Under the pieces are notes generated by a model that was not told where the DNA came from, did no database searches, and was given only the letters and a program-made list of their open reading frames with translations. A DNA stretch of 64,000 bases from Alphaproteobacteria bacterium (GTDB taxonomy: Bacteria > Pseudomonadota > Alphaproteobacteria > UBA2966), in contig JABILA010000120.1 of the NCBI GenBank assembly GCA_018654745.1, positions 1 to 64,000 of the forward strand. Direction: 5' to 3'. Numbering within the stretch: position 1 is the stretch's first letter; every line of letters starts with the position of its first letter. Below are positions 5,003-63,707 of this stretch, piece by piece. The translations under genes and the position numbers were made by a program.

Positions 5003-5665
5003 ATGAGCGAAACTTACATGCAAGGCCTGATCCCGATGGTCGTCGAACAGACCAATCGCGGCGAACGTTCTTACGACATTTATTCTCGTCTGCTGAAAGA
5101 ACGCATTATCTTTTTGTCTGGCGGTGTTGACGATCATGTTGCCTCGGTGATTTGTGCCCAGCTGCTGTTTCTAGAAGCCGAAAATCCTGACAAGGACATT
5201 GCGTTCTACATCAACTCACCTGGTGGCATCGTTTCTTCCGGCATGGCGATTTACGACACCATGCAATATGTGAAGCCCGATATTACAACATTGTGCATGG
5301 GGCAGGCCGCTTCCATGGGCTCATTGTTGTTGTGTGCCGGTGCCAAAGGCAAACGATTTGCCTTGCCAAACTCCCGCGTGATGGTTCACCAGCCATCCGG
5401 TGGAGCCCAGGGTCAGGCGACGGATATTGAAATCCAGGCGCGTGAAATTCTCGCCTTGCGGGCCCGTTTGAATCAGATTTATGTCGATCATACCGGACAG
5501 GATCTCGATACAATTGAAAAGGCTGTCGAGCGCGACAACTTCATGACAGCCGAAGAAGCGAAATCCTTTGGTTTGATCGATGATGTGGTCTCCAGCCGTC
5601 CGGTTACTGACGATGACAAAAAGGCGCTGGATTCTGACACGTCGGAAATTGAGGATAAAAGCTGA
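5003..5665 (+). CDS. clpP: ATP-dependent Clp protease proteolytic subunit
   Basis: Serine peptidase forming the double-heptameric chamber that degrades proteins unfolded by ClpX or ClpA. The Ser-His-Asp triad is visible: Ser104 in GQAASMGS, His129 in VMVHQPSGG and Asp178 in ERDNF. I choose ATG 5003 (220 residues, MSETYMQGL) rather than the GTG at 4985 of the ORF track, because GCGAGGA lies just before 5003 and the family starts there. The acidic C-terminal tail (from about 195) is typical. clpX follows after a 260-base gap. Confidence 0.97.
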
Positions 5666-62485: not shown

Positions 62486-62579
62486 TCATTGGTGGTCAAG
62501 CAGAAACTAGCGGGCCGATTGAATTTGTCATTCCATGATCTGTTTACGTCTGTCCCCTAATAATGTTACTACCCTTCAC

Positions 62580-63215
62580 ATGGGCAAATCCGGAAAAGAC
62601 AGTGAAAAGCGGGGGTATCATCACGGCAACCTGGCGGAGGCCTTGGTGCAGGCTGCCCTGGATCTGATTGCCAAGGTGGGTCCAGCCGGCTTTAGTTTTG
62701 CCGAGGTTACGCGCGCTGTCGGGGTCAGTCCGGCGGCTCCTTATCGTCACTTCAAGGACCGTGAAGCCCTGATGGCAGCCATTGCCAGCCGCGGGTTTGA
62801 CAAATTTTCGGACGCTCTGACCGCTGCCTGGAATGACGGTAAACCAGATGCCCTTGCGGCGTTCAAGAATGTGGGTCAAGCCTATCTGGCCTTCGCTCGC
62901 AAGGAGCCAGCCTATTTTGCGGCCATGTTTGAGGCTCGGGTCTCGCCCGGCAGTACGAAGGAACTAACCCAGGCGACAGAGCGTGCTTTCGCGGTTCTTC
63001 GCCGGGCATGCGATGCCTTGATCCTGACATTGCCTGAGAACAAACGTCCGCCATCCTTGATGATGGCCCTGCATGTCTGGACTATGTCGCACGGCATCGC
63101 GTCTTTATTTGGACGGGGAGATGCGGCGCGTCGGCACATTCCTATGACCCCGGAAGCGTTACTGGAAGCCAATATTCTGATCTATCTGGATGGTCTTGGT
63201 TTGAGTGGCGCTTAG
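62580..63215 (+). CDS. TetR family transcriptional regulator
   Basis: One-component regulator (211 residues from ATG 62580). The N-terminal helix-turn-helix domain starts RGYHHGNLAEALVQAALDLI and contains FSFAEVTRAVGVSPAAPYRHFKDREALM (about 37-65). The C-terminal ligand domain resembles the WHG-type subgroup (WTMSHGIASLF). The track start at 62535 adds 15 residues without a ribosome binding site; neither start has a strong one, so the mRNA may have a very short leader. It is followed 100 bases later by a DUF2852 gene with a palindromic operator. Confidence 0.9.
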   Translation: MGKSGKDSEKRGYHHGNLAEALVQAALDLIAKVGPAGFSFAEVTRAVGVSPAAPYRHFKDREALMAAIASRGFDKFSDALTAAWNDGKPDALAAFKNVGQAYLAFARKEPAYFAAMFEARVSPGSTKELTQATERAFAVLRRACDALILTLPENKRPPSLMMALHVWTMSHGIASLFGRGDAARRHIPMTPEALLEANILIYLDGLGLSGA

Positions 63216-63282
63216 CCAAAATTCTGCAGCAGCGTATTTTTTTAAATTTATCCCTTGATGCCAGGGTTATCGTCCCTATTTC

Positions 63283-63305
63283 TATAATGTAAATAACATT
63301 TACAT
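63283..63305 (+). promoter_or_regulatory. -10 box with overlapping palindromic operator
   Basis: TATAAT (63283-63288) overlaps the palindrome ATGTAAAT-AAC-ATTTACAT (63287-63305), which ends ten bases before the DUF2852 start and also runs into its AGGA ribosome binding site region. Its size and symmetry are typical of TetR-family operators, and a TetR gene lies directly upstream. No convincing -35 box at 16-18 bases was found. Confidence 0.5.
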
Positions 63306-63314
63306 GAGGATACA

Positions 63315-63707
63315 ATGGACATAGTCAACAAACTGGATGAACACGGAAAAGGAGCCTGGATTGGCGTCATGATCCTGAGTTTCATTCTTTTCTGGCCCGC
63401 GGGATTGGCAATCCTTGCTTACTTATCATGGAGTGGACGAATGAAATGCTGGAAGATGGGACGCCGCAAATGGCGTAACTACGGTGGTCATCACCACCAC
63501 AATCACGCATCAGCAAGCGGTAATTCGGCTTTTAACGATTATCGCGAAGAAACGCTGAAGCGTCTTGAAGAAGAGCAGGTCGAATTCGAAGGTTATCTTG
63601 AGCGCTTGCGACAGGCCAAGGACAAGTCAGAGTTTGATCAGTTCATGGACGAACGCCGCAATGCTCCTCCACCTTCAGATAACCCGGAGCCTTCTGCAAA
63701 CGCATAA
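63315..63707 (+). CDS. DUF2852 family protein
   Basis: A 130-residue protein with one or two N-terminal membrane helices (about 14-38, WIGVMILSFILFWPAGLAILAY), the family motif KCWKMGRRKW, a His-rich stretch (GGHHHHNH) and a charged C-terminal coiled coil (about 78-105). Function is unknown. AGGA precedes ATG 63315. It probably forms a regulated unit controlled by the upstream TetR protein. Confidence 0.85.
   Translation: MDIVNKLDEHGKGAWIGVMILSFILFWPAGLAILAYLSWSGRMKCWKMGRRKWRNYGGHHHHNHASASGNSAFNDYREETLKRLEEEQVEFEGYLERLRQAKDKSEFDQFMDERRNAPPPSDNPEPSANA

Follow-up and report, generated by a model that had tools for sequence, protein, structure and literature searches.

Organization of the tetR-DUF2852 locus and its two proteins

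The stretch of alphaproteobacterial DNA that we analyzed (64,000 nt, hereafter the window) belongs to a 5.07 Mb genome and carries, between lexA and moeA, a gene for a TetR-family regulator followed by a gene for a DUF2852 protein (Table 1). A preliminary description of this DNA had stated that the pair interrupts the usual lexA-moeA order, and this proved correct: of 30 loci sampled in the class, 26 had moeA within the fetched flank of lexA. The tetR-DUF2852 pair likewise follows lexA in the close relative L003. When the neighborhoods of relatives were compared, TetR and DUF2852 were the sole recurring neighbors, lineage-specific clusters aside.

Table 1. Genes and predicted regulatory elements of the tetR-DUF2852 locus (window coordinates).
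Feature	Position	Strand	Basis
tetR, TetR-family regulator, 211 aa	62580-63215	+	TetR_N and TetR_C_33 domains
DUF2852 protein gene, 130 aa	63315-63707	+	PF11014 profile match
Putative operator ATGTAAAT-AAC-ATTTACAT, palindrome ATGTAAATAACATTTACAT	63287-63305	+	Conserved motif in relatives
Predicted -35 element TTGATG	63255-63260	+	TTGA[CAT] conserved at near-fixed distance in relatives
Predicted -10 element TATTTC, weak, inferred, 16-nt spacer	63277-63282	+	Close-relative alignment
Weaker copy of the operator, ATGTTACTACCCTTCACAT, across the start codon of tetR; predicted site of autoregulation	62563-62581	+	12/14 motif positions

The regulator contains both a TetR_N helix-turn-helix domain (PF00440, E = 2.5e-10, 40.4 bits against a cutoff of 24) and a C-terminal helical ligand/dimer domain (PF13305, 54.7 bits against a cutoff of 26.8). 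Its structural model (pLDDT 89.8) adopts the all-helical TetR fold and matches TetR structures, the nearest solved structure being 3on2 from Rhodococcus, a likeness that rests on domains and fold. The same TetR_N plus TetR_C_33 arrangement is found in TetR-family local repressors, which have a palindromic operator at their target and at their own gene; the regulator at this locus differs from them in that its probable target is a predicted membrane protein instead of an efflux pump or an enzyme.

The DUF2852 protein matched PF11014 over the full domain (positions 1-116 of 116, E = 1.4e-42, 144.9 bits against a cutoff of 22.5). Its model comprises a helix at residues 12-40, which is predicted to span the membrane, and a long C-terminal helix at residues 71-116, with low confidence between the two. 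We predict that DUF2852 is a small protein of the inner membrane, which it would cross with a single helix while its long helix lies in the cytosol, and the positive-inside rule would place its basic linker in the cytosol. Invariant residues of the family include P28, G30, N70, F73, D103, F107, and F110. The His-rich stretch that the preliminary description had pointed out in the protein lies in a variable His/basic linker and is not conserved in relatives, hence no feature of the family; for the same reason, we rejected the linker as a metal site. Sequence and fold searches of DUF2852 against solved structures returned nothing useful.

A palindrome on the predicted transcription start of the DUF2852 gene

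The palindrome that the preliminary description had reported between tetR and the DUF2852 gene is indeed present, ends directly 5' of the GAGGA ribosome-binding site of the DUF2852 gene, and occurs as one exact copy in the whole genome. Taken alone it would be unremarkable because the window contains two perfect 8-3-8 palindromes and 17 palindromes with arms of at least 8 nt and spacers of 0-8 nt, so the case for an operator rests on conservation, which is what makes the palindrome significant. The second perfect 8-3-8 palindrome, AAGGCAAACGATTTGCCTT, is located at positions 5346-5364.

Across relatives, a TTGA[CAT] element preceded the operator edge by 20-36 nt at 53 of 68 loci, 30 of them at a distance of exactly 28 nt, compared with 3% for shuffled sequence. 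Given this conserved element ~28 nt upstream, the operator would lie on the transcription start, which we infer to fall inside the palindrome. The preliminary description had the palindrome overlapping a TATAAT box. The two do overlap, by 2 nt (TATAAT at 63283-63288), but TATAAT is unlikely to serve as the -10 element, since it lies 22 nt from TTGATG and is replaced by AATAAT or TTAATG in close relatives. TTGATG-N16-TATTTC is the more likely promoter of the DUF2852 gene judging from these alignments, and neither the TATTTC nor the TATAAT candidate was among the matches of a promoter consensus scan.

The upstream motif of DUF2852 accompanies the regulator

To score conservation, we defined the motif as ATGTNAATNNNATTNACAT, with 14 scored positions and a match set at 11 or more of 14. 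The first sample consisted of the genome contigs fetched for TetR homologues together with 191 genomes of the class. Wherever DUF2852 lay nearby downstream of a TetR homologue and the upstream region was readable, the motif was found upstream of DUF2852; it was also present at two loci near a contig end that were scored without a DUF2852 call (L012 and L035). Exact copies of ATGTNAATNNNATTNACAT occurred at 8 places in the 191 genomes, and 7 of these lay immediately before DUF2852; the reversed control gave none. In this set, DUF2852 was encoded by all 24 genomes that had a close TetR homologue (E<1e-40) and by 8 that had no such homologue. DUF2852 genes of the first sample carried the motif where the genome had a close TetR homologue. 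The motif was absent before DUF2852 in five genomes with no close TetR homologue (G008, G128, G070, G174, and G110) and in G081, which has a distant TetR paralogue only. Among named species, the DUF2852 operator scored 14/14 in Azospirillum thermophilum and likewise in Pseudorhodobacter turbinis, in which tetR and DUF2852 are ~465 kb apart.

The second sample comprised DUF2852 genomes from a phylum-wide draw made once the motif had been fixed; they were then searched for TetR and scored, with G558 and G570 searched but left out of the scoring. With classes assigned by hand from coordinates, the motif was found at 11 or more of 14 positions in 20/20 cases with linked tetR and in 26/26 cases with tetR elsewhere in the genome, such that all 46 DUF2852 genes with a close TetR relative in the genome had it upstream. 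It was likewise found in 7/7 cases with a divergent TetR (38-50% identity), in 1/5 with distant paralogues only, and in 0/15 genomes without TetR, which come largely from a few families. Fisher's test of motif against TetR presence or absence gave p ~1e-15 before allowing for shared ancestry, which inflates it; because the genomes are related, the counts are not independent events.

Conservation in the linked cases, taken by themselves, could reflect a single inherited intergenic region. The unlinked cases matter most for this reason, since in them a common intergenic region cannot account for the motif, and the 26/26 result argues against this explanation. The preliminary description had proposed looking for orthologous DUF2852 genes that lie next to this TetR and lack the palindrome; among the readable linked cases there were none. 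Its reading that TetR controls DUF2852 thus gains support from the comparison, in which the motif is also present with unlinked tetR and is gone in DUF2852 genomes without TetR.

A divergent TetR subgroup was found beside DUF2852 in the opposite orientation (L065, 2386-3621; L148 in G105, ~1960-2230), and the intergenic region between the two genes contained changed palindromes, e.g. ATGCGAACACTGTTCACAT. Tandem DUF2852 gene pairs a few hundred bases apart occurred in some genomes of family f22 (L222, L223, L201, and L209 in G403, G579, G420, and G380, respectively).

Operator architecture differs between the window and most relatives

At 50 of 67 sites on the DUF2852 side, the palindrome is overlapped by another one shifted by 6 bp, creating four half-sites in ~25 bp. 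This double palindrome is absent from the window and from its close relatives L003, L004, and L008, which have a single palindrome only, and the window operator lacks the outer half-site. From this layout, the window operator probably binds one dimer, while in most relatives two overlapping TetR dimers probably occupy the operator, where they would sit on nearly opposite faces of the DNA. QacR of S. aureus and CprB of S. coelicolor bind as a dimer of dimers (PMC4150764), and the operators of most relatives, with their overlapping, offset palindromes, resemble this arrangement, in contrast with the single palindrome of the window; the likeness is one of operator layout. Two separate operators 58 nt apart, in place of overlapping ones, were observed upstream of DUF2852 in G020, G138, and P. 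turbinis (L100, L105, and L155), all with unlinked tetR.

A second site at tetR and the breadth of the regulon

Because the weaker operator copy lies over the tetR start codon, we predict that the regulator controls its own gene. Of 64 relatives, 34 have a homologous site there, matching 11-14 of 14 positions at the 5' end of tetR, and in 85% of these the 3' half runs into the start codon (ACATG). Autoregulation would not be universal, however, since Hyphomicrobium-like and Rhodobacterales loci have no tetR-side site. In Paracoccus ferrooxidans, tetR begins 9 nt past an upstream HPr gene and is probably read from the HPr operon. The palindromic operator at both target and own promoter that typifies the family is thus present at the level of sequence, with the tetR site found in about half of relatives.

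We found no sign of a wider regulon in the genome: the motif with up to 2 mismatches occurred at 17 places in the genome compared with 8 for the reversed control, and only the two at the tetR-DUF2852 locus were convincing. Separately, L046 (1394-1412) and L048 (1404-1422) have an extra motif copy, ATGTTAATCTCTTTAACAT / ATGTTAAATTCTTTAACAT, between genes ~1.6 kb upstream of tetR, possibly an additional target or a terminator.

A probable dedicated repressor, operator, and target

We consider it most probable (roughly 0.88) that TetR represses DUF2852 as a dedicated module, limits its own level, and is released by a ligand. A TetR dimer would bind ATGTAAATNNNATTTACAT where transcription from the DUF2852 promoter is predicted to start, keeping the gene off, and by binding the weaker copy that covers the tetR start codon the regulator would also limit its own level. 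A ligand in the C-terminal pocket would then release TetR, allowing DUF2852 to be made. Literature searches for the operator or the TetR subfamily found no relevant match. The regulatory link has strong comparative support and is best treated as a prediction that can now be taken to experiment.

A minority of TetR-family regulators are activators, so TetR might activate DUF2852 instead of repressing it. We regard this as unlikely because the palindrome coincides with the predicted start point, past both the -35 and the -10 element, and a protein bound there would be expected to block RNA polymerase. Slightly less probable still is that the palindrome is the operator of another regulator and that TetR is merely a frequent neighbor. 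Its ATGT...ACAT core does resemble the sites of other regulators, but the motif tracks TetR even when tetR is elsewhere in the genome, about half of the relatives have a second copy at the 5' end of tetR, and the more divergent TetR subgroup beside DUF2852 comes with a changed palindrome. An RNA hairpin or a chance palindrome with no protein bound, to which the other perfect 8-3-8 palindrome of the window might point, is very improbable given that the sequence itself, beyond its complementarity, is conserved at a fixed promoter position across families, that palindromes overlapping with a 6-bp offset form no single simple hairpin, and that the motif depends on the presence of TetR.

Leads to the function of DUF2852

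Local TetR repressors are already a known kind of regulator, and the question that this repressor module makes testable is what DUF2852 does, for which a conserved dedicated repressor and operator would provide a handle. That TetR accompanies one target throughout Alphaproteobacteria, also in genomes where the genes lie at a distance from each other, suggests that DUF2852 has to be produced only under a particular condition, and the identity of the ligand would therefore point to its function.

One lead concerned polyhydroxyalkanoate. phaZ stands before DUF2852 in records from Sinorhizobium, Rhizobium, and Shinella, and a phaR-like gene lies near DUF2852 in G110 (L157, L158, L159, and L118); the DUF2852 genes of these loci have no operator. 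PF06850 was present in 26 of 32 DUF2852 genomes vs 59 of 159 others (hand-counted). Since this co-occurrence was largely gone in genomes larger than ~3.3 Mb by a rough hand count and proximity was otherwise absent, we set the link aside as only a weak lead.

Two proteins with the same DUF annotation as the window protein appear in published data sets. BR2114 of Brucella suis is decreased in a mapB mutant, which has an envelope defect (PMC6377625). In PMC6515984, the bll7160 protein of Bradyrhizobium diazoefficiens is increased under low oxygen (log2 fold change of 2.5) and its gene is up 4.9-fold in soybean bacteroids. These data fit an envelope- or condition-linked role for DUF2852 and prove none. 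It is conceivable, if rather doubtful, that TetR senses a membrane- or lipid-derived signal and controls DUF2852 alone as an envelope-stress switch, with DUF2852 acting in envelope maintenance; the layout of DUF2852 would then be loosely comparable to that of PspB. The portions of both reports considered here name no dedicated regulator or operator for BR2114 or bll7160, and bll7160 is not marked there (PMC6515984) as a NifA or FixK2 target; a TetR of this type, should that strain carry it together with the operator, would be a candidate regulator for the low-oxygen and bacteroid induction of bll7160.
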